Virus record (IMG/VR): IMGVR_UViG_3300028735_000016 | Coordinates: 1-37,375 of that record | DNA: 37,375 nt | Origin: a virus | Reading direction: 5' to 3' (one strand) | In this document: one piece after another, positions 1 through 11,357 of the stretch | Position numbering within the stretch: position 1 is the first letter of the stretch | Layout: every line of letters starts with the position of its first letter | Notes under the pieces: generated by a model | Told to the model about the DNA's origin: nothing | What the model saw: the letters and a program-made list of their open reading frames with translations, nothing else | The model's database searches: none | Position numbers and translations under genes: made by a program

Positions 1-183
1 AACAACCCTCATGCAGCAAACTTATCTCTCAAGCCGTCGGCACAGCTATTGCTTGGGATGCCCCCAACCGAACAAGAAGCTGTTCGCGAATGGCTCGTCA
101 GAGCTGGAATTGTTCGCAAGAGCGATAGAAATTGGGGTGCGTATATTAGCAAGGCTCCGGGAACACTCGTAGGGGAGTACGCA
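1..183. repeat. Terminal repeat, left copy
   Basis: Bases 1-183 match 37193-37375 except at one position (G at 57, A at 37249). The repeat lies inside the polymerase gene and the mismatch is the third base of a glycine codon, so it is synonymous. This is best read as the closure overlap of a circular assembly, not as a natural packaging end. Confidence 0.95.
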
Positions 184-1539
184 AATGGCGATGTTATACG
201 AACGTACAAAATCTTTCGTGATCTTTATCCGAAGATTGTTAGTGATGGTATGCTGGGTGCTTATAATCGCGAGCGCCAACTGCTGTATATTCTTCTTGAC
301 AACGAGCGCACTGGTCTGCGCGTGGATATCAAGGGTCTTCGAAGGGACATTCCTTTGTTTAACAACGCTCATTCTGAAGCTGACCAGTGGTTGCGTAAAC
401 GGCTTAAAACGCCTGATCTGAACATTGATTCTAATGACGATCTAGCCGATGCGCTGGACAGAGCTGGGGTTGTGACAGATTGGTCCTACACAGAAAAAGG
501 AAATCGCAGCACGTCGAAAGAAAACATGACGTTAACGATGTTCAAGGATAAGCGCGTTGCTCAGGTTCTTGGCTATCGAAATCGCCTTTCAACTTGCTTG
601 CGAATGTTCATGCAACCTTGGCTGGAAATGGGGCAAGAAAATAAAGGGATGATTCACCCAAACTGGAACCAAGTTCGACAATCAAAAGGCGAAGACAATA
701 CAAAAGGAACGCGGACAGGAAGACTAAGTTGCTACGAGCCTAATTTGTTAAACCTCGCAAAAAACTTCTACGACAAGGATGACGGCTATGAACACCCCTC
801 GTTTCTTCGATTGCCCGAGCTGCCACTCGTCAGAACATATGTCCTCCCCGATAAGAAGTCCAGTTTTCTTCACAGGGATTACAATCAACAAGAGCTTAGG
901 CTACTTGCACATTTCGAAGACGGTGCGCTTTGTCAAGCATATAGGGATAACCCCCGGCTGGACGTGCACAACTTTGTGCGGGATGCGATTGCTCAAGTTA
1001 CACGAAGAACCCTGGAGCGTCGCGCTGTCAAGATTCTCAACTTTGGAATTATTTATGCGATGGGGGTGGAGAAGATTGCGATTAAGACAAGGACATCGGT
1101 AGAAGATGCGCGCCAGATTCGTAATGCTCACCGCAAAGGTATGCCGGGTATTGCTGATCTTGAAGCACAGATTAAGAAATTTGGTGTAGAGGGGAGACCA
1201 ATCAGGACATGGGGCGGAAGATTGTACTATACGGAACCCCCACGCATCATCAAGGGGGTGGAGAAGACCTATGAATATAAATTACTGAATTACCTCATCC
1301 AGGGCAGCGCTGCTGATGTAACGAAGGAAGCGATCATCCGCTATAACAGCGTAAAGAAGGACAGTCGATTTCTTGTTACTGTGTACGACGAAATAAACAT
1401 CAGCGCGCCAAAGAACGCAGTTAAGCAAGAGATGAAGTTGTTGAAGGAAGCGATGGAGTCAATTGAACTGGACGTACCGTTGACAAGCGACGGCAAGGTT
1501 GGTTCGTCATGGGGAAGGCTGAAGCCTTATAAGGAATAG
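1..1539 (+). CDS. polA: DNA polymerase I family (PolA), C-terminal part; continues from 36875
   Basis: This is the replicative phage DNA polymerase. Joined to 36875-37192 it is one 618-residue protein in a continuous frame. Exonuclease motif III is YANGD (Y166, D170 in full numbering). Polymerase motif A is DYNQQELR (D399, E404, R406). Motif B is RRAVKILNFGIIYAMG (K450, F454, Y458). Motif C is VYDEI (D569, E570). The consensus motif C is VHDE, so His is replaced by Tyr; motif B has Ala after the Tyr where Gly is usual. The length suits a compact phage PolA with a proofreading domain but no 5' nuclease. The TTG at 49 is only an internal codon. The next gene starts 4 nt downstream, in the same operon. 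Confidence 0.95.
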   Translation, partial: NNPHAANLSLKPSAQLLLGMPPTEQEAVREWLVRAGIVRKSDRNWGAYISKAPGTLVGEYANGDVIRTYKIFRDLYPKIVSDGMLGAYNRERQLLYILLDNERTGLRVDIKGLRRDIPLFNNAHSEADQWLRKRLKTPDLNIDSNDDLADALDRAGVVTDWSYTEKGNRSTSKENMTLTMFKDKRVAQVLGYRNRLSTCLRMFMQPWLEMGQENKGMIHPNWNQVRQSKGEDNTKGTRTGRLSCYEPNLLNLAKNFYDKDDGYEHPSFLRLPELPLVRTYVLPDKKSSFLHRDYNQQELRLLAHFEDGALCQAYRDNPRLDVHNFVRDAIAQVTRRTLERRAVKILNFGIIYAMGVEKIAIKTRTSVEDARQIRNAHRKGMPGIADLEAQIKKFGVEGRPIRTWGGRLYYTEPPRIIKGVEKTYEYKLLNYLIQGSAADVTKEAIIRYNSVKKDSRFLVTVYDEINISAPKNAVKQEMKLLKEAMESIELDVPLTSDGKVGSSWGRLKPYKE

Positions 1540-1542
1540 AGA

Positions 1543-2202
1543 ATGACAATACAACAAATAAAAACCTGGAGCTTTAGCCGCTGGACAACGTACCGCGATT
1601 GTGCTTTTCGCGCAAAGTGTAAGTTTATTCTCAGACTTCCGGAACCACCATCGCCATCCATGGAACGCGGAAACTTAATTCACAAAATGGCGGAAGATTT
1701 CACAAGGGGAAAGATAAAGAAACTTCCGCTGGAACTTTCCAAGTTTTCAAAGGAATTTCAAACGTTGCGTCGTGTCAAAGCTGTCGTCGAGGAACAATGG
1801 GCTTTCACAGAAAATTGGGAGCTTTGTGATTGGTTCAGCCCAGCTGCGTGGCTTAGAATTAAGATGGATGTTCATTATGTTGTGAAAAAGTTACTGCGGA
1901 TCCGAGATCATAAGACGGGAAAGCCAAAAGAAAGTCACTTAGAGCAGCTGTCTCTTTATGGCCTTGGCGGACTTCTTCGCTATCCTAAAGTAGAAGACGT
2001 CGAAGCCGCACTTCTTTATCTTGATGTTGGCGGAACTCCCCCGACTGAAGTATTTAGTCGAAGTCAGCTCGCAACTTTGAAGAAAGAATGGAGACAGAAA
2101 GTTCAACCTATGTTGAACGATAAACGCTTTCTCCCTAAACCTAGCTTCGCTTGTTCGTGGTGCCCATTCAGCAAAGCGAAAGGCGGCCCGTGCAAGTACT
2201 AG
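1543..2202 (+). CDS. PD-(D/E)XK nuclease, Cas4/RecB-like, probable Fe-S cluster
   Basis: This 219-residue protein is a probable DNA exonuclease of the RecB/Cas4 (PDDEXK_1) superfamily. Visible motifs are H47 in the N-terminal helix, D109, the D122-x-K124 pair in RDHKTGK, and the QLSLYG helix following it. Cysteines at 20, 204, 207 and 217 follow the Cas4/AddB arrangement of one early Cys plus a late C-x2-C-x9-C group, which suggests a 4Fe-4S cluster. The start ATG lies 4 nt after the polymerase stop. Its position between polymerase and VRR-NUC suggests a role in replication, recombination or host DNA breakdown. It is not linked to a CRISPR array here. Confidence 0.85.
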   Translation: MTIQQIKTWSFSRWTTYRDCAFRAKCKFILRLPEPPSPSMERGNLIHKMAEDFTRGKIKKLPLELSKFSKEFQTLRRVKAVVEEQWAFTENWELCDWFSPAAWLRIKMDVHYVVKKLLRIRDHKTGKPKESHLEQLSLYGLGGLLRYPKVEDVEAALLYLDVGGTPPTEVFSRSQLATLKKEWRQKVQPMLNDKRFLPKPSFACSWCPFSKAKGGPCKY

Positions 2203-2504
2203 AAAGACTGATAGAAAAGAGGACTGTCGCCAAGGCACAAAAAGAATTCAAGATTACAGCTTTGAAGTTGAATGTGGCAGGAAGACGCGGTTATCCGGAT
2301 AGAATGTTCCTAATACCGGGAGGAAAGCCGTTCTTCATAGAGTTCAAGAGACCGGGGTCTGTGCCAACTTCGCTGCAAAGCTACACCATAAAGAACTTGC
2401 AGAATTTGGGGTATGATGTCGAAATTCACAATAACGTCGAAGAAGCACTCCAAGCCATTGGGAGAAGAATGGAAGCCGCTAGACTACCAAAGACGCGCGG
2501 TTAA
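2190..2504 (+). CDS. VRR-NUC domain nuclease
   Basis: This is a small nuclease of 104 residues if started at GTG 2190. That start has an AAAGGCGG ribosome-binding sequence just upstream and overlaps the preceding gene by 13 nt; an upstream TTG at 2151 is possible but lacks support. The VRR-NUC signature is clear: GRRGYPDR (D37), then IEFKRPG (E51, K53), then a glutamine in the next helix (Q63). Stand-alone phage VRR-NUC proteins often sit beside SNF2-type helicases, as here. The family is thought to cut branched or flap DNA; the exact substrate is not visible. Confidence 0.9.
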   Translation: MQVLERLIEKRTVAKAQKEFKITALKLNVAGRRGYPDRMFLIPGGKPFFIEFKRPGSVPTSLQSYTIKNLQNLGYDVEIHNNVEEALQAIGRRMEAARLPKTRG

Positions 2505-3840
2505 ATTTCTTCTTCAAAACCCAGTAGCTGGCTTATTCTTGGATCCTGGATTGCGAAAGACATCCATTGTTCTCGCCGCATTAAAAATACTTAAGCGAGA
2601 GAAGATGTTTACACGAGCGCTGATTGTAGCTCCGCTTCGTGTCTGTTATTCTGTTTGGCCCAGTGAAGGAAGAAAGTGGCGAGATTTCCATGATCTGAAA
2701 ATGGTGATTCTACATGGAAAAGACAAAGAAAAGAATCTGGATAAAGAAGCTGATATTTATCTTATCAATCCAGAAGGATTGCAGTGGTTGTTCGCGCGAA
2801 ACTTCAAAAGCCTCGGCTTCGACATTCTTGTCATAGACGAGAGCAGTAAGTTCAAAGCTTCGAATACAAAGCGATTTAAGCTTCTAAAGCCTGTTCTAAG
2901 ACACTTTTCTCGTCGCTATATACTGACCGGATCCCCAGCGCCCAATGGATTATTGGATCTTTTCAGCCAGATATACATTTTAGATTTGGGGGCTGCTCTC
3001 GGTCAATACATTTCGCACTTTAAGCACAATTACTTCTATCCTACAGGATATGGAGGATATGAGTGGAGACTCCAGCCGGGTGCTGAGAAGCGCATTCAAG
3101 AGCGAATTGCGCCTATAACTTTCCATCTCGAGGCAGCAGATTACCTAGAGCTGCCTAAGTTAGTTATAAATGATATCAAGCTTCAGCTCCCCCCTGCTGC
3201 GCGGGAAGTGTACAGGGAGATGGAACGTGAATTGATAGCTCGGCTAGAGCGCAATGAAATTACGGCAATGAACGCCGCAGCCGCAACAATGAAGTGTCGC
3301 CAAATAGCCAATGGCGGCGTGTATGACGATATGAAGACTATACACCATATTCATGATGTTAAGACAGAAGCTGTTGTCGATCTTGTTGACGAACTAGGCG
3401 GGTCTCCCGTTCTCATCGCTTACGAATTTGACCATGATCTCAAAAGATTGTTGAAGGGGTTGGGAAAAGACACGCAGTATATAGGCGCCGGTGTTGATCC
3501 GAAGAAATTGGCTAAGATCGAAGAGGCGTGGAATCGCGGAGAATTGACTAAGCTGCTTGGTCAGATGACCAGTGTTGCGCACGGCCTTAACTTGCAAGAA
3601 GGAATGTGCAGCCATGTTGCCTTCCACAGCTTAACATATAACTTTGAGCTTTACACTCAGTTCTTTCGCCGTGTTCTCAGATCTGGAAACAAGGCAAAGA
3701 AAGTCGTAGTGCACAGGTTCATTATGGAGGATACAGTGGACGAAGCTATGGTGGCTGCCTTAGAGGCGAAGGACAGAACTGAGCGCGGGTTTCTTCATGC
3801 CCTTAAGAGACATCTGTTTTCAAGGAGAACACCGACATAA
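2413..3840 (+). CDS. SNF2/DEAD-like superfamily II helicase
   Basis: This 475-residue helicase has motif I as DPGLRKT (K49, T50), motif II as DESS (D142, E143), motif III as LTGSPAPN, and a C-terminal lobe ending in FFRRVLRSGNK (motif VI). The Q-motif-like region is WKPLDYQ. It overlaps the VRR-NUC gene by 92 nt. ATG 2413 and 2416 are both possible starts because the upstream sequence has only a weak GGGG. The Walker A carries Arg48 where Gly is usual (GLGKT). The helicase and VRR-NUC probably form a recombination or branch-processing pair. The stop codon TAA lies within the promoter-like element at 3837-3877. Confidence 0.88.
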   Translation: MMSKFTITSKKHSKPLGEEWKPLDYQRRAVKFLLQNPVAGLFLDPGLRKTSIVLAALKILKREKMFTRALIVAPLRVCYSVWPSEGRKWRDFHDLKMVILHGKDKEKNLDKEADIYLINPEGLQWLFARNFKSLGFDILVIDESSKFKASNTKRFKLLKPVLRHFSRRYILTGSPAPNGLLDLFSQIYILDLGAALGQYISHFKHNYFYPTGYGGYEWRLQPGAEKRIQERIAPITFHLEAADYLELPKLVINDIKLQLPPAAREVYREMERELIARLERNEITAMNAAAATMKCRQIANGGVYDDMKTIHHIHDVKTEAVVDLVDELGGSPVLIAYEFDHDLKRLLKGLGKDTQYIGAGVDPKKLAKIEEAWNRGELTKLLGQMTSVAHGLNLQEGMCSHVAFHSLTYNFELYTQFFRRVLRSGNKAKKVVVHRFIMEDTVDEAMVAALEAKDRTERGFLHALKRHLFSRRTPT

Positions 3841-3877: not shown

Positions 3878-3946
3878 TTAAGGTGATAGAGGGGCAAGCC
3901 CTCGACCGTTATGGCGGCATCCATGAAAGAACTAAGGAGAGCAAGC

Positions 3947-4384
3947 ATGACTGAAGAAACTGAGAAGAAGACTGAAGAAACTGTGAAGAAGTTTGTGAAG
4001 AAAGAAAAGAAGGCTAGTAAGGAAGAAGCACCAAAAGCTGGCCTTGTTGTCGATGTGAGTAAGGCCAACCTTTCTTCAAGCATCGGAAAGAAAGCTTCGG
4101 ACAAGAAGTTAACAACAAAAGCAAAGAAGACAGAAAAGAAGAAGTCTGAAAGTGGCCGCGCTGGCCGCCCCAGTCCGTTTGTTGGTAAGAAGATCAAAAC
4201 AGTTGCGAAGGAGCACGGAGCTAGAGAAGGAACTTTACGAGCTGCCCTCATGAAGAAGATTATGGCCGCCAGCAACGTCGATGACGTCATCGGGAAAACA
4301 GTATCTGCTGGCGACAAAAGTAAGATCGTTGCTTCGGCGGACATTCACTTCGCTGTCAAGAACAATCTTATTCAGGTATACTGA
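3947..4384 (+). CDS. Lysine-rich basic protein, unknown function
   Basis: This 145-residue protein is not recognised with certainty. The first 80 residues are dominated by Lys, Glu and Thr and look disordered. A GRAGRPSPFVGKK segment follows, then a compact 60-residue C-terminal part. AAGGAG about 8 nt upstream of ATG 3947 makes this a better start than the in-frame ATG at 3911. The basic N-terminus followed by a GRP motif would suit DNA binding, but that is inference. It is the first gene after element A and is followed by a hairpin at 4396-4417. Confidence 0.75.
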   Translation: MTEETEKKTEETVKKFVKKEKKASKEEAPKAGLVVDVSKANLSSSIGKKASDKKLTTKAKKTEKKKSESGRAGRPSPFVGKKIKTVAKEHGAREGTLRAALMKKIMAASNVDDVIGKTVSAGDKSKIVASADIHFAVKNNLIQVY

Positions 4385-4439: not shown

Positions 4440-5429
4440 ATGAAGCATGTCGTCTATTATCCAGCTTGCATAGATTCCCCAATAGTGGCTGGAGCGCGCA
4501 TTGCGCGTTGGTTGTCGAAGCATCTCCCTGTTCCGAAGAAAGATATTATTGTCTTAGATGGGAAGAGCATAAGATCTTGGCTGCCAAACGGAGATTACAT
4601 TCTTTATGTCATTAATGTCCCCAAGACTATGATCAAAGAAGTAGAGGCGACAGAAACATTTGTGGAGAAAGCCAGTTGCGTTGTTTGGATTCAGAATGAT
4701 TACAGTATATGGGCGCCAACTTCAAGTACTGAGGGAATGAGCATTGTAACGAGAGCATTCACAAAGCGTATTCAACACAACAAGCCAACCTTTGTATGGT
4801 CAACATGTCAGAATCGTTGTATAAAGAATGAGAAAGACTATCGCTATATAAATTGGAATGCGCTTGCTTATCAGCCTATAGATAGTTTTTTAGGTTCTCG
4901 GAGAAAGAAAATATTGTATTTTGGTTCTTTCAGAGATGGCCGCGTGAAAGAATTTGACAGGTATCTGTCTCACGACCTTGCCAAAGAGACATTTTTAATA
5001 TCGGCTCCTTCTGCGTCGGCGAGAAAGTTCAAGGAACGATATAAGTTTGGCGAAGAGCACATGACAGGAGTTTTACCAAATATTCCGTCGGACTTGACTA
5101 AGTACGCAGCGACATTGTATCTCGAAGACGATCAGTCGCATCGACAATATCATTCCCCAGCCAACAGGTTATATGAGGGGATTTCTGCAGGAATGGCTGT
5201 TCTTGTTGACTACAAGGCTGTTGGAACTTTGCAGAAAGCTGGGTTTGAAGTTCCGGAATGTTGTATTGTTTCTTGCTGCGTTTCTGCCAGAGAAGCGATG
5301 TTGCGTTCCAGGAAGATAGTAGCCGCTCAGGCAAGTTGGCACACTGCCCCCAATACAACCTTGCCTCATGATGAAGCATTGAAACAAGATATAAAGAGTT
5401 GTCTTAGGGAGGTTCTTAAATGCGCATAG
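4440..5429 (+). CDS. Glycosyltransferase-like protein
   Basis: This 329-residue protein resembles GT-B type glycosyltransferases. A new Rossmann-like start, ILYFGSF, appears at residues 158-164. A C-terminal donor-site-like stretch has ANRLYEG at 241-247, then ISAGMAVLVDY. Such E-G-x-x-A/S-G-x-x motifs bind the nucleotide sugar in GT-B enzymes. Start ATG 4440 follows GAGGGTTGAA. It overlaps the next gene, a base-hypermodification protein, by 10 nt, so a role in glycosylating a modified DNA base is attractive. A surface-polysaccharide target cannot be excluded. No catalytic residue is identified with certainty. Confidence 0.6.
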   Translation: MKHVVYYPACIDSPIVAGARIARWLSKHLPVPKKDIIVLDGKSIRSWLPNGDYILYVINVPKTMIKEVEATETFVEKASCVVWIQNDYSIWAPTSSTEGMSIVTRAFTKRIQHNKPTFVWSTCQNRCIKNEKDYRYINWNALAYQPIDSFLGSRRKKILYFGSFRDGRVKEFDRYLSHDLAKETFLISAPSASARKFKERYKFGEEHMTGVLPNIPSDLTKYAATLYLEDDQSHRQYHSPANRLYEGISAGMAVLVDYKAVGTLQKAGFEVPECCIVSCCVSAREAMLRSRKIVAAQASWHTAPNTTLPHDEALKQDIKSCLREVLKCA

Positions 5430-6265
5430 AAGAGTTTTTTCGATTTATTCGGGAACGACACTCTATTTATGATCGCCGCATGCGCGGAAAAGCGAAGCCT
5501 TGGACAAAAGATGTCATATTGCAGAACTATCGCTTTTGTAATGTGAACAGAGAATTAGACACTGTAACAAAGTGGCTGAGAAACAATTGGTACAACCCCA
5601 ACGCAGGCGACTCAGATCTTTGGTTTGCGGCTGTTGTTGCTCGTCTGATAAATTGGCCAGACACGTTGAAAGAAATTGGCTTCCCTAAGCCATTTAATCC
5701 TGGCCACATAGTGAAAGTGTTACAAACTAGAACAAACAGCGGAGAAAAGACATATACTAGCGCGTACATGATAACAACACATAATAAGAAAATAGACAAA
5801 GCAGAATATGTTGTTAACAGTATTCTTGTACCAATGTTTTTGCGAAAGGAAGAACTGGGCTTTCAAGCAGAGAAGGACAAGACATTAGAAGAATTTTGTA
5901 AGAGACTTTGTCTGATAAAGGGAATTGGTCCTTTTTTCGCCGGCCAAGTGATCGCCGATGTGAAGTACGATATTCGTTATAACAACGTTGAAGATTGGTG
6001 GTCTTTCGCTGTTAGTGGAACCGGAAGCAGGCGTGGGCTGAACAGAGTGATGAACCTACCAACTTCAAAGAAGCTGACAGAAGAACAATGGAAGATATAT
6101 CTGGACAATATTCGTTCTTCTTTATTACCGCTGCTTAAAAAAGCTGGTATAGAACCTCTTCATGCTCAAGATGTTCAGAACTGTCTTTGCGAGTTCGATA
6201 AGTACGAACGTGTCAGACTTGGCGAAGGAAGCCCTAGATCAAGATATAACGGAGGTGCCACATGA
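5420..6265 (+). CDS. Putative DNA base hypermodification protein (5-hmdU kinase helical / aGPT-pyrophosphorylase family)
   Basis: This 281-residue protein is recognised from its N-terminal block: RERHSIYDRR, GKAKPWTKD, YRFCNVNRELD and TKWLRNNW (about residues 10-55), then DLWFAAVVARLINWP. This pattern is typical of the family annotated as 5-hmdU DNA kinase helical domain or alpha-glutamyl/putrescinyl-thymine pyrophosphorylase. LIKGIGPFFAGQ near residues 165-176 resembles a helix-hairpin-helix DNA-binding turn, and GSRRGLNR follows. I see no separate P-loop. A GGGAGG ribosome-binding site precedes ATG 5420. The neighbours, a thymidylate synthase homologue and a GT-like gene, fit a thymine-modification pathway. 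Its precise reaction is unknown. Confidence 0.8.
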   Translation: MRIEEFFRFIRERHSIYDRRMRGKAKPWTKDVILQNYRFCNVNRELDTVTKWLRNNWYNPNAGDSDLWFAAVVARLINWPDTLKEIGFPKPFNPGHIVKVLQTRTNSGEKTYTSAYMITTHNKKIDKAEYVVNSILVPMFLRKEELGFQAEKDKTLEEFCKRLCLIKGIGPFFAGQVIADVKYDIRYNNVEDWWSFAVSGTGSRRGLNRVMNLPTSKKLTEEQWKIYLDNIRSSLLPLLKKAGIEPLHAQDVQNCLCEFDKYERVRLGEGSPRSRYNGGAT

Positions 6266-7296
6266 AAGTTATCACAGTCAGAAATGTGAACGATGCCTTG
6301 TTTCACGGCTTGCCTTATCTTCTTAGGGAGGGAGTGAAGGAAGACAGCCGCAACGGAAGCGTGATTGTTGCGCCGGGGCCAGTGATGACAGAATACACCC
6401 ATCCAATGGAGCGTGTAGTATTTAGCCCAACTCGTGATGCGAACCCCTTCTTCCATCTTATGGAAGCATTGTGGATGCTTGCCGGCCGCAACGACCTAGA
6501 CTGGCCGCTTTACTTCAATAGCCGCTTCAAAGAATTTAGCAATGATGGAAAATATGTTCACGGTGCCTATGGGCAACGTTGGCGTGTTTGGTTCGGAATG
6601 GATCAATTGTTCGTTATTGGGAATGAATTAAAAAATAACCCCAAATCTAGACGTGCAGTTTTAGCGATGTGGTCTGCTGGGGGAGATTTGGCAGAACTGA
6701 CGACAAGTGAAGGGAGAAAAATAGGAGGGCTGAAGAGCAAGGACGTGCCCTGTAACACCCACATATATTTCGACCTGCGCTATGGTAAACTTAATATGAC
6801 GGTCTGTAACCGCTCAAATGACGTCATATGGGGAGCATACGGAGCTAACGCGGTGCACCTTAGTATGCTCCAGGAGTACATGGCAGCATGGATTGGCGTA
6901 CCTGTAGGCGTGTACAGGCAATTTAGTAATAACTTTCACGTTTACCTTGACGTGTACAACACTGATAAGTTACAACAGATAGCTCAGGAATCGTACCAGA
7001 CAAATTATTACGCTGTTCGCGGAGATCGCTCTGTTATCTTAGTTGAACCTTCCCCGCTCGTCTCCACAAATGTTGACGAATGGAATAGCGATCTGCTGTC
7101 ATTCTTGGGAGATCCAAAAAGACACAACACCTATAAGAATTCTTTCTTTAACGACGTTGCTCGTCCCATGTATATGGGATGGTATGCGCGAAAAAATAAA
7201 GAAGGAAGTGGGCTAGAAGAAGTAGAAAGAATAAAGGCGACAGATTGGCAGCGAGCATGTGTGGAGTGGATCGCTCGTCGCGAAAGGAAGCACTGA
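6262..7296 (+). CDS. Thymidylate synthase homologue (TS or dUMP hydroxymethylase)
   Basis: This 344-residue protein belongs to the thymidylate synthase superfamily. The helix FHLMEALWMLAGRND matches the TS ELLWFL-G-TN region. The nucleophile is C164 in DVPCNTHIYF. RSNDVIWGAYGAN carries D187 and N196; the Asn that reads uracil is kept, which argues for dUMP rather than dCMP as substrate. Later H/Y residues lie in NNFHVYLDVYN. The start is fixed by GGAGGTG and an ATGA overlap with the hypermodification gene. Sequence alone cannot say whether it makes dTMP or 5-hydroxymethyl-dUMP. The neighbours favour the latter, as in SPO1-type hmdU pathways. Confidence 0.88.
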   Translation: MKVITVRNVNDALFHGLPYLLREGVKEDSRNGSVIVAPGPVMTEYTHPMERVVFSPTRDANPFFHLMEALWMLAGRNDLDWPLYFNSRFKEFSNDGKYVHGAYGQRWRVWFGMDQLFVIGNELKNNPKSRRAVLAMWSAGGDLAELTTSEGRKIGGLKSKDVPCNTHIYFDLRYGKLNMTVCNRSNDVIWGAYGANAVHLSMLQEYMAAWIGVPVGVYRQFSNNFHVYLDVYNTDKLQQIAQESYQTNYYAVRGDRSVILVEPSPLVSTNVDEWNSDLLSFLGDPKRHNTYKNSFFNDVARPMYMGWYARKNKEGSGLEEVERIKATDWQRACVEWIARRERKH

Positions 7297-7877
7297 TGAG
7301 CAGCCCAATAACGGATAAAGTCGAAATCTTAAAGTTCATTTTCTTCGGAGGAAAGACGAAGAGATTTCACACATCTGACACACTGACTACACAGACAATT
7401 GCCGAACACAGCTTCGGCGTTGCGTGGATTTGCTACTTAATCTCAGAAAATCCTTCAGTTAACCTTATCCTCGCAGCGCTGGCACACGATCTTCCAGAAC
7501 AACACTACGGAGATATGAATGGCTGGGCTAAACAGAAAACTCCAGCTCTTGGAGAAATGATCAACAATCTTGAAGAGGATCTTGCGCGAAGATATTCACT
7601 TTTCTTCTTCGACAAGCTTTCAGAAGACGAACAGAGAATACTGCAGATTGCAGACCGCATTGACGGGATGATGTTCTGCATTAGAGAAAGGGTTTTCGGC
7701 AGCAAGGCGGTGCAGGAAATTTACGAAAACTTTCTATATCTAGCTATGAAGAACATGAAGAGAGAAGACGAAGTTGCTCACTACATCGTTTCTGAACTTA
7801 ACAACATCTGGGAGAATACAAATGGTAAGCGACCAAGCGAACGAAAGACAAGTTGGGGGAAACCACTACAAGTCTGA
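7296..7877 (+). CDS. HD-domain nucleotide phosphohydrolase, YfbR-like
   Basis: This 193-residue protein is a probable 5'-nucleotidase or dNTP-pool hydrolase of the HD superfamily. Motif residues are R23, H38 in IAEHSF, H64-D65 in ALAHDLPEQ, E68 and D120 in IADRID, matching the YfbR arrangement. It starts at ATG 7296 in a TGATG overlap with the TS-like gene, after GAAAGGAAG. In phages with altered thymine such enzymes can remove dTMP or competing nucleotides. That role is inferred from the neighbourhood; ordinary nucleotide salvage is the alternative. Confidence 0.85.
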   Translation: MSSPITDKVEILKFIFFGGKTKRFHTSDTLTTQTIAEHSFGVAWICYLISENPSVNLILAALAHDLPEQHYGDMNGWAKQKTPALGEMINNLEEDLARRYSLFFFDKLSEDEQRILQIADRIDGMMFCIRERVFGSKAVQEIYENFLYLAMKNMKREDEVAHYIVSELNNIWENTNGKRPSERKTSWGKPLQV

Positions 7878-8289
7878 CTTTCAACACTGGGATTTTGTTA
7901 ATCAAACAGCTCTGCCCTACATCCCGGCGCAAGTAGCTAGATATTTATGTCGGTGGAAAAAGAAGGGGAAGGAAGAAGATCTTCGAAAAGCTGTTCACTT
8001 CATGGAAAAGCTTATCGAAGAAGAAGCGACGCGAAGAAAAATACACCGTATTCTTGTGGAGAACTTCATTCTTTCTAATAAGATTGAAATGGAGGAGGCT
8101 AATGCGCTGCGATATCTCGTCAAGTATTATGTTGGCGCTGAAGATCTGCTTGTCATGGCACGAGGATGTATAGTACGAACATTGTCTGCTGAACTTATGA
8201 GAAAGGAGGCTTTGAAATCTGAAGCCCAAGCTGAGATCGAAGATCTATTTTCAACAATGCCAAACCTCAACCCAAAAGGAGATATGTAA
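7822..8289 (+). CDS. DUF3310 protein
   Basis: This is a 155-residue protein whose first half is a DUF3310 domain, a widespread phage nucleotide-kinase-associated domain of unknown function: VGGNHYKSDFQHWDF, then VARYLCRWKKKGKEEDL and AVHFMEKLIE. The C-terminal half is helical and charged with no recognised domain. Start ATG 7822 has GGGAG upstream and overlaps the HD gene by 56 nt, so an earlier ATG at 7774 is unlikely. Being coupled to nucleotide-metabolism genes is usual for this family. Confidence 0.85.
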   Translation: MVSDQANERQVGGNHYKSDFQHWDFVNQTALPYIPAQVARYLCRWKKKGKEEDLRKAVHFMEKLIEEEATRRKIHRILVENFILSNKIEMEEANALRYLVKYYVGAEDLLVMARGCIVRTLSAELMRKEALKSEAQAEIEDLFSTMPNLNPKGDM

Positions 8290-10415: not shown

Positions 10416-11357
10416 TCACTTAATTCTTATTACTTGAAAGCGTGTGCGCGACGCGAAAAGAGCTATCTGCGATCCTGTATTTTGATAGCACGCCACTTCA
10501 AGATAATCACTTGCTGTCAAGTCCATGACAGCAGAAAGAGAAACAGTTCTATCAGAATTGCCAGAAGGCATCGCTATGCGAGCTAGGTAATTTGTTGAAG
10601 AATTGTTCTTATACAACATTACTGTGAACTCGCCAGCTGCTACTGTATTAAAGCACACTGTAGTATTAACAAGATAGCGACCAGTTTCGCTAACTGTGAT
10701 ACGTTGGTTATTTAAAGAATTGTCGTGCCAAGATTTATCGTCAAACTCTTCGCTGCCGAAGTTAAGTTTAGTTGTCACTCCAGAACTAACACTCTGAGCA
10801 GTAGAAGGAACAACCGAAGTTCCGTAACCAAACAATTCTGTGTAGGCAGGATCAGCGTTAGCTCCCCCACTGAGAAGTGCGTAACCAGCTGTTCCTTCTC
10901 TTGCAAGCTTCGTCACATCAACTACATTCGCAGCAATCTTAGCTGCCGTGACACTAGCATCTTTGATCTTTGCTGTTTCTACAGCGTCTGTTGCCAGCTT
11001 CGCGGCAGTCACGCTAGCATCTTTGATCTTTGCTGTTTCTACAGCGTCTGTTGCCAGCTTCGCGGCAGTCACGCTAGCATCTTTGATCTTTGCTGTTTCT
11101 ACAGCGTCTGTTGCCAGCTTCGCGGCAGTCACGTTAGCATCTTTGATCTTTGCTGTTTCTACAGCGTCTGTTGCCAGCTTCTCGGCAGAAATGCCACCGG
11201 TCGCTACAAAACTGCCAGCGGCTAAGGCAGTAGCAATGTCCGCCATGAGTTGACGAATTGCATCATTCACTCCTCCGGGCGCGCAACCTTCAGAGATGTC
11301 AGTGCCGCTGATAGTAGAGTTGTTAGCCGGAGTCGTACTGTAGTCAGTTATTGCCAT
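10416..11357 (-). CDS. Tail fibre/appendage protein with 20-residue repeats
   Basis: This is a 313-residue protein. The N-terminus looks like a virion-attachment region (NNSTISGTDISEGC, PGGVNDAIRQLMADI). Residues about 60-145 hold four tandem 20-residue repeats of the type TAAKLATDAVETAKIKDASV, which usually form a trimeric shaft. The last 150 residues form a beta-rich head typical of TNF- or C1q-like fibre tips (SETGRYLVNTTVCF, EFTVMLYKN). It probably takes part in host binding. Start ATG 11357 follows AGGAG. Nearly identical DNA repeats underlie the shaft. Confidence 0.8.
   Translation of the reverse strand: MAITDYSTTPANNSTISGTDISEGCAPGGVNDAIRQLMADIATALAAGSFVATGGISAEKLATDAVETAKIKDANVTAAKLATDAVETAKIKDASVTAAKLATDAVETAKIKDASVTAAKLATDAVETAKIKDASVTAAKIAANVVDVTKLAREGTAGYALLSGGANADPAYTELFGYGTSVVPSTAQSVSSGVTTKLNFGSEEFDDKSWHDNSLNNQRITVSETGRYLVNTTVCFNTVAAGEFTVMLYKNNSSTNYLARIAMPSGNSDRTVSLSAVMDLTASDYLEVACYQNTGSQIALFASRTRFQVIRIK
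10952..11180. repeat. 60-bp tandem repeat, about 3.8 copies
   Basis: Three copies (at 10981, 11041 and 11101) are identical except for one base in the third, and partial copies flank them. The period of 60 keeps the fibre gene in frame (20 residues per unit). The near identity suggests recent expansion or ongoing homogenisation. Confidence 0.95.

Follow-up and report, generated by a model that had tools for sequence, protein, structure and literature searches.

Does the phage represented by the IMG/VR contig IMGVR_UViG_3300028735_000016 place a sugar on modified thymine in its DNA? The analysed DNA, referred to as the window, is this contig in its full length of 37,375 bases and derives from an uncultivated phage. 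The question is raised by a cassette of four plus-strand genes encoding a glycosyltransferase (GT), a helical protein of family PF18723 (HEL), a homologue of thymidylate synthase (TS) and an HD phosphohydrolase (HD). An earlier note had described these as four overlapping genes forming a candidate thymine hypermodification cassette, and this layout was confirmed, with successive overlaps of 10, 4 and 4 nt. Purine-rich stretches resembling ribosome-binding sites were found upstream of GT and of HEL. As judged from the sequences, the probable product of the cassette is a glycosylated form of 5-hydroxymethyluracil in the phage DNA, a phage counterpart of base J. The comparative evidence supports what the earlier note had suggested in this respect, namely a hypermodification based on 5-hydroxymethyldeoxyuridine (hmdU), a sugar-decorated final base as the predicted product and a path other than the kinase path.

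The first gene of the cassette, GT (4440..5429, plus strand), encodes a protein of 329 aa with a predicted function in sugar transfer to hmdU in DNA. No match to the protein was found in Pfam (none at E 1), in the PHROGs or in the PDB sequence file, and there was likewise no match to the Pfam family TAGT (PF20691, a GT-A family). Viral contigs searched with the single sequence gave no relatives; an alignment query recovered relatives in 24 viral contigs. Relatives were present in the Escherichia phages EP_H11 and IME392, and weak ones in T4-like phages of Citrobacter and Cronobacter. Structure prediction, which the earlier note had proposed as a check, gave with AlphaFold2 a confident GT-B model from the 24-sequence alignment (pLDDT 87.3, pTM 0.87). 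Foldseek searches with this model returned five entries of T4 BGT at ranks 2-6 (E 4e-7 to 1e-6, TM 0.55-0.60), one Foldseek match being the structure of the D100A mutant (1nzd). The profile of the T4 BGT family (8 sequences) matched the GT family profile in hhalign with E 9.6e-6 and a probability of 83%, with control comparisons at E 0.16 and 0.45. T4 BGT as a single sequence gave no significant match to GT (E 0.039), and the sequence identity between the two is only about 14% over 207 columns. In the profile alignment D87, R165, D230, R243 and E246 of GT stand opposite D100, R191, D258, R269 and E272 of BGT, where D100 is the catalytic base of BGT and the other four line the UDP-glucose site. 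D230, R243 and E246 are invariant among the 24 family members and D87 and R165 are conserved in at least 90%; the nearly invariant R168 pairs with Q194 of BGT, one residue away from the second phosphate-site Arg, R195. Profiles and model support the assignment of the GT family as a remote homologue of T4 BGT with a GT-B fold, by which the GT-like protein of the earlier note is refined to a T4-BGT-like one. HEL was present in the locus of 19 of the 21 distinct viral contigs with the window GT family, TS in 16, a kinase in 5 and an amino acid:DNA transferase (ADDT) in 0. The two contigs without HEL at the locus were also devoid of HEL contig-wide, and the T4-like phages carrying a distant GT relative lack it too.

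The TS homologue (6262..7296, plus strand, 344 aa) is a TS-superfamily enzyme and a probable hydroxymethyltransferase acting on deoxyuridine monophosphate (dUMP). It matched Pfam Thymidylat_synt (E 6e-17). Among the PHROGs its match to phrog_5131, the M6-type group, was far stronger (E 2.5e-121) than that to phrog_160, which comprises phage TS in general (E 6e-27). It is 47% identical to TS of Pseudomonas phage M6 and relatives; DNA of M6-type phages contains hmdU-derived bases (PMC6449724). The uracil-reading N196 pointed out in the earlier note aligned with solved TS structures, along with the catalytic C164 and the dUMP-site residues R184 and D187. Asn196 occupies the position of an Asp in CMP hydroxymethylase. 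Because the TS partner reads uracil, the acceptor of the sugar should be hmdU and not 5-hydroxymethylcytosine (5-hmC). The T4-like relatives of GT also raised the possibility of an arabinosyl-cytosine system, but the uracil-type TS argues against it. The last gene of the cassette (7293..7877, plus strand, 194 aa) encodes, as the earlier note had it, a YfbR-like HD phosphohydrolase (Pfam E 2e-13, 50.8 bits compared to a gathering score of 25.9), related to the phage dATP triphosphohydrolase group of the PHROGs (E 7e-11). It is a probable remover of competing dTMP and dTTP.

HEL (5420..6265, plus strand, 281 aa) belongs to HMUDK_hel, PF18723 (Pfam E 1e-47, 163 bits compared to a gathering cut-off of 25), a family whose name derives from the helical part of the 5-hmdU DNA kinase, and is 34% identical to HMUDK_hel of M6. 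The earlier note had correctly grouped it with the helical partners of the 5-hmdU kinase; the link to pyrophosphorylases that the note also made was not demonstrated. The AlphaFold2 model, from a structure prediction as suggested in the note, was very confident (pLDDT 95.6), but no significant match to PDB structures was obtained with it. The first four structural matches include 7ugk, a queuine-salvage protein (prob 0.87, E 0.14), and 1pu6, the DNA glycosylase MagIII (prob 0.51, E 0.57), neither of them significant, and as a pointer to a DNA-glycosylase-like (HhH) fold the resemblance of the model to these proteins is suggestive only. Neither HEL nor GT had a genuine relative in sequence searches of the PDB. 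R13, R44, D47, D192, C257, E258 and K261 are invariant polar residues of HEL, and its invariant residues are identical between 29 kinase-type and 49 GT-type proteins. HEL is predicted to be a binding or presenting partner for hmdU-DNA. HEL homologues with neither a TS homologue nor a kinase or GT in the vicinity were seen in the loci L050, L056-L061, L065 and L081, on contigs of up to several hundred kb. Rhodoferax phage P26218 (L148) and MW202557 (L149) show the order ADDT-kinase-TS-HD-DUF3310, with no HEL anywhere in the record.

Neither the 5-hmdU kinase nor ADDT was detected in the window. The kinase profile (PF18748) had no match across the complete genome, with M6 as positive control (9e-55), no open reading frame of at least 70 aa contains G....GK[ST], and the ADDT model (PF18724) found no match. 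None of the 35 records searched in addition to M6, of which the window is one and many are fragments, matched the kinase profile. The ends of the window share a 183-bp direct repeat (37193..37375, no strand, a copy of 1-183 with 182/183 identical positions and one mismatch), which shows that the contig, although recorded as linear, represents a complete genome that is circular or terminally redundant in the assembly. The repeat is positioned within the gene for the family A DNA polymerase PolA, which is split by the contig ends into a C-terminal part (1..1539, plus strand, Pfam E 1e-54) and an N-terminal part (36875..37375, plus strand, PolA profile 68.5 bits, overlapping with the left end). 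Since the genome is complete, the lack of 5-hmdU kinase and amino-acid transferase is a true, genome-wide absence. The statement in the earlier note that no P-loop kinase or amino-acid transferase was visible thus holds for the whole genome, by profiles and motif scan.

Comparison of about 100 neighbourhoods of HEL or TS showed a common frame of PolA - exonuclease - helicase - [slot] - HEL - TS - HD/DUF3310. The slot contained a P-loop kinase (alone or together with ADDT), a window-type GT, a GT-A of the TAGT family (PF20691 E 4e-17; PHROG beta-glucosyl-HMC-alpha-glucosyltransferase E 5e-44), a GT-B resembling Glycos_transf_1 (below cut-off) or another GT-B-like family recognised by motif only. 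Among 67 distinct loci with HEL and TS and sufficient flanks, 23 had only a kinase, 39 only a GT, 5 had both and 0 neither. With a strict count, in which only the window GT and the GT-A were accepted, the numbers were 23 kinase, 32 GT, 5 both and 7 neither (p 2e-7, a Fisher value that ignores relatedness among loci). The c84 proteins were counted as GT-B by motif alone, with neither a Pfam match nor a convincing PHROG match, and hhalign did not connect them with the window GT; the exclusivity of kinase and GT was still significant after removing c84 and c25. Mapped onto the HEL tree, the kinase/GT label requires 15 changes; for the kinase label, no fewer than 8 changes are forced by supported branches. 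The loci L098 and L106 belong to two phages from one metagenome. Their alignment covers 5.2 kb at 81% as far as the slot and 4.2 kb at 74% starting from HEL; in the interval, one has ADDT and kinase where the other has a GT-B-like gene (L098 7268-9066, L106 5105-6650). Kinase and GT are exchanged repeatedly at the slot. Because of this exchange, and because the same invariant residues are found in both settings, HEL is not tied to the kinase.

Additional genes were observed beside the slot in some loci. A sulfotransferase-like gene (Pfam Sulfotransfer_4 at E 0.012 only) is located by GT or TAGT in L126 (8217-8999), L128 (5721-6482), L133 (7812-8585) and L083 (6977-7699), a hint that the DNA may bear sulfated sugars. 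A radical-SAM/SPASM protein is repeatedly encoded next to GT or TAGT in many HEL loci, among them L014 (7160-8134), L123 (9869-10858), L136 (5055-5885) and L143 (7651-8649). In the cultured Brevibacterium phage LuckyBarnes (L150 2798-6813), TS and two TAGT genes come immediately before HEL, and a kinase was not found. In Lactobacillus phage ATCCB (L156) a T4-BGT homologue is flanked by an annotated thymidylate synthase and a UDP-galactopyranose mutase, a layout hinting at a galactofuranose-type donor.

In the proposed pathway the TS homologue would convert dUMP to 5-hydroxymethyl-dUMP, and the YfbR-like HD enzyme would drain dTMP and dTTP, favouring the use of hmdUTP. hmdU would be put into DNA by PolA, and HEL would bind or present the hmdU base, as it would for the P-loop 5-hmdU kinase of phages like M6. 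The BGT-like GT, with its fold and active site assigned by homology, would then move a sugar from a host nucleotide sugar onto the hydroxymethyl oxygen in DNA; capping of the hydroxyl would thus fall to GT in place of the kinase. The sugar donor is expected to come from the host because no sugar-nucleotide gene was recognised among the window genes scanned. The sugar would shield the DNA from restriction, as in T4. A broader proposal, to which we give an even chance, is that HEL is a general hmdU-presenting module and not a kinase domain. Interchangeable caps (the kinase, and GTs of several unrelated families, namely the BGT-like GT-B, the TAGT GT-A and two further GT-B-like families) would then be swapped at one slot by uncultivated phages, with a different final base as the consequence. 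The outcome would be a large class of DNA in which thymine is capped by a sugar, in some cases with sulfate or other groups added.

The M6-type system, which makes 5-NedU, consists of TS, the 5-hmdU DNA kinase PF18748, HMUDK_hel PF18723, ADDT PF18724 and HD; the statements on its chemistry rest on PMC6449724, PMC11946847 and general knowledge. In M6 the products gp055 (HMUDK_hel) and gp054 (P-loop kinase, PF18748) are neighbours, and the ADDT gp051 (PF18724) is encoded near them. The window has in common with this system TS (47%), HMUDK_hel (34%), the HD protein and the position near PolA, but is without kinase and ADDT and carries the BGT-like GT in the slot. T4 BGT, which acts on 5-hmC DNA, shares with the window GT the GT-B fold, the aligned active-site residues and a TS-superfamily hydroxymethylase as neighbour. 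Unlike T4 BGT, the window GT is paired with HEL, which was not seen in T4, and has a TS partner that reads uracil. EP_H11 and vB_EcoM_IME392 resemble the window in that GT homologue, HMUDK_hel, TS and YfbR HD are consecutive, and differ from it by an additional P-loop kinase (AAA_28) and a further GT-like gene; no chemical study of either phage was found in the literature searched. Pelagiphages of the HTVC023P type were reported in 2022 to have TS, aG/PT-PPlase1, a 5'-deoxynucleotidase and a putative beta-glucosyl-HMC-alpha-glucosyltransferase near PolA, and a broadened function was suggested (PMC9599517). This set resembles the window in its similar genes near PolA in related podoviruses; its GT carries the name of the TAGT-type PHROG, whereas the window GT is BGT-like and without a TAGT match. 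Base J of kinetoplastids (beta-glucosyl-hydroxymethyluracil) belongs to the same predicted product class, a sugar on hydroxymethyluracil. It arises by oxidation of thymine in DNA, whereas the window route is predicted to run via an hmdU nucleotide, with different enzymes. In Yersinia phage YerA41 thymidine carries a large substituent, probably an oligosaccharide; the masses do not fit plain hexoses, and the responsible genes were not resolved in that study (PMC9023294).

An alternative to glycosylated hmdU is that HEL itself does chemistry on hmdU, for instance adding or rearranging a substituent, and that GT decorates the product, giving hmdU, a linker and a sugar. The invariant polar residues of HEL agree with this, as do its sister group, the enzyme ADDT, whose solved structures bear the names amino acid:DNA transferase and glycinyltransferase, and the radical SAM or sulfotransferase-like genes added in several loci. 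However, the same invariants occur beside kinases and unrelated GTs, for which one shared service fits better than one chemistry, and some phages manage without HEL, so that catalysis by HEL appears unlikely. It is very improbable that GT acts on host surface sugars or on a phage protein, leaving hmdU alone in the DNA. Surface GTs are frequent in phages, and the best Foldseek match (3rhz) acts on serine-rich proteins, but the GT gene overlaps HEL, the company of HEL is near-constant across diverse contigs, and both the profile homology to a DNA GT and the replacement of the kinase by GT at a single slot speak for DNA as the substrate. It is hardly credible that the TS homologue acts as a standard thymidylate synthase and that the unit serves nucleotide supply only. 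The enzyme keeps all canonical dUMP-site residues, and hydroxymethyl transfer and methyl transfer cannot be separated by sequence alone, a caution also expressed by the authors of the phiW-14 genome paper for the two TS activities (PMC5977210). Against an ordinary TS stand its much closer relation to phrog_5131 than to phrog_160 and its strict company of HEL plus kinase or GT.

Several observations weigh against the proposed formation of glycosylated hmdU. The rank-1 Foldseek match of GT was 3rhz, a GT glycosylating serine-rich proteins, the HEL fold is without a significant PDB match, and the Fisher p values take no account of relatedness. Five loci, including EP_H11 and IME392, carry both kinase and GT; phages of this kind may build mixed decorations. 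TAGT and TS occur without HEL in MW202897, and ADDT, kinase and TS without HEL in P26218 and MW202557. HEL is therefore not indispensable everywhere, and the idea that it is always required was dropped.

The related gene set in pelagiphages was already known (PMC9599517). New relative to the literature searched is that GT is BGT-like, that kinase and ADDT are missing from the whole genome, that nearly every locus carries a kinase or a GT, with swaps between the two recurring, and that HEL is conserved whatever its context. The cassette offers a concrete, testable path to base-J-like DNA in phages. It suggests that hmdU decoration is modular, with one gene slot choosing between phosphate/amine chemistry and a sugar, and predicts that PF18723 is misnamed as kinase-specific. 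The 24 aligned members with D87/R165/D230/R243/E246 define a predicted DNA glycosyltransferase family unnamed in current libraries, which would aid the prediction of modified phage DNA in metagenomes and could yield hmdU-labelling enzymes.

The remainder of the genome is podovirus-like, with terminase, portal, major head protein, scaffold, NusG-like antiterminator and endolysin recognised. The closest terminases belong to freshwater and marine phages, e.g. Rhodoferax phage P26218 and pelagiphages. The cassette comes after PolA, a PDDEXK exonuclease (1543-2202), a VRR_NUC-like small nuclease (2151-2504) and an SNF2-type helicase (2413-3840), all three on the plus strand and assigned by family library matches, and a Lys-rich protein between helicase and slot (3911..4384, plus strand) with relatives in 19 loci. 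The order of exonuclease, nuclease and helicase (1543..3840) is kept in most related loci. The next gene downstream of the cassette encodes a DUF3310 protein (7822..8289, plus strand, Pfam E 4e-5, at the cut-off), a conserved neighbour present in 103 of the fetched loci. A role as hmdUMP kinase like T7 gp1.7 was considered as a lead only, direct similarity being absent and just the DUF3310 domain being in common. A nearly perfect 60-bp tandem repeat of 3.9 copies was observed at 10954-11188, inside a minus-strand gene (10416-11357) for a probable tail-fibre-like protein.

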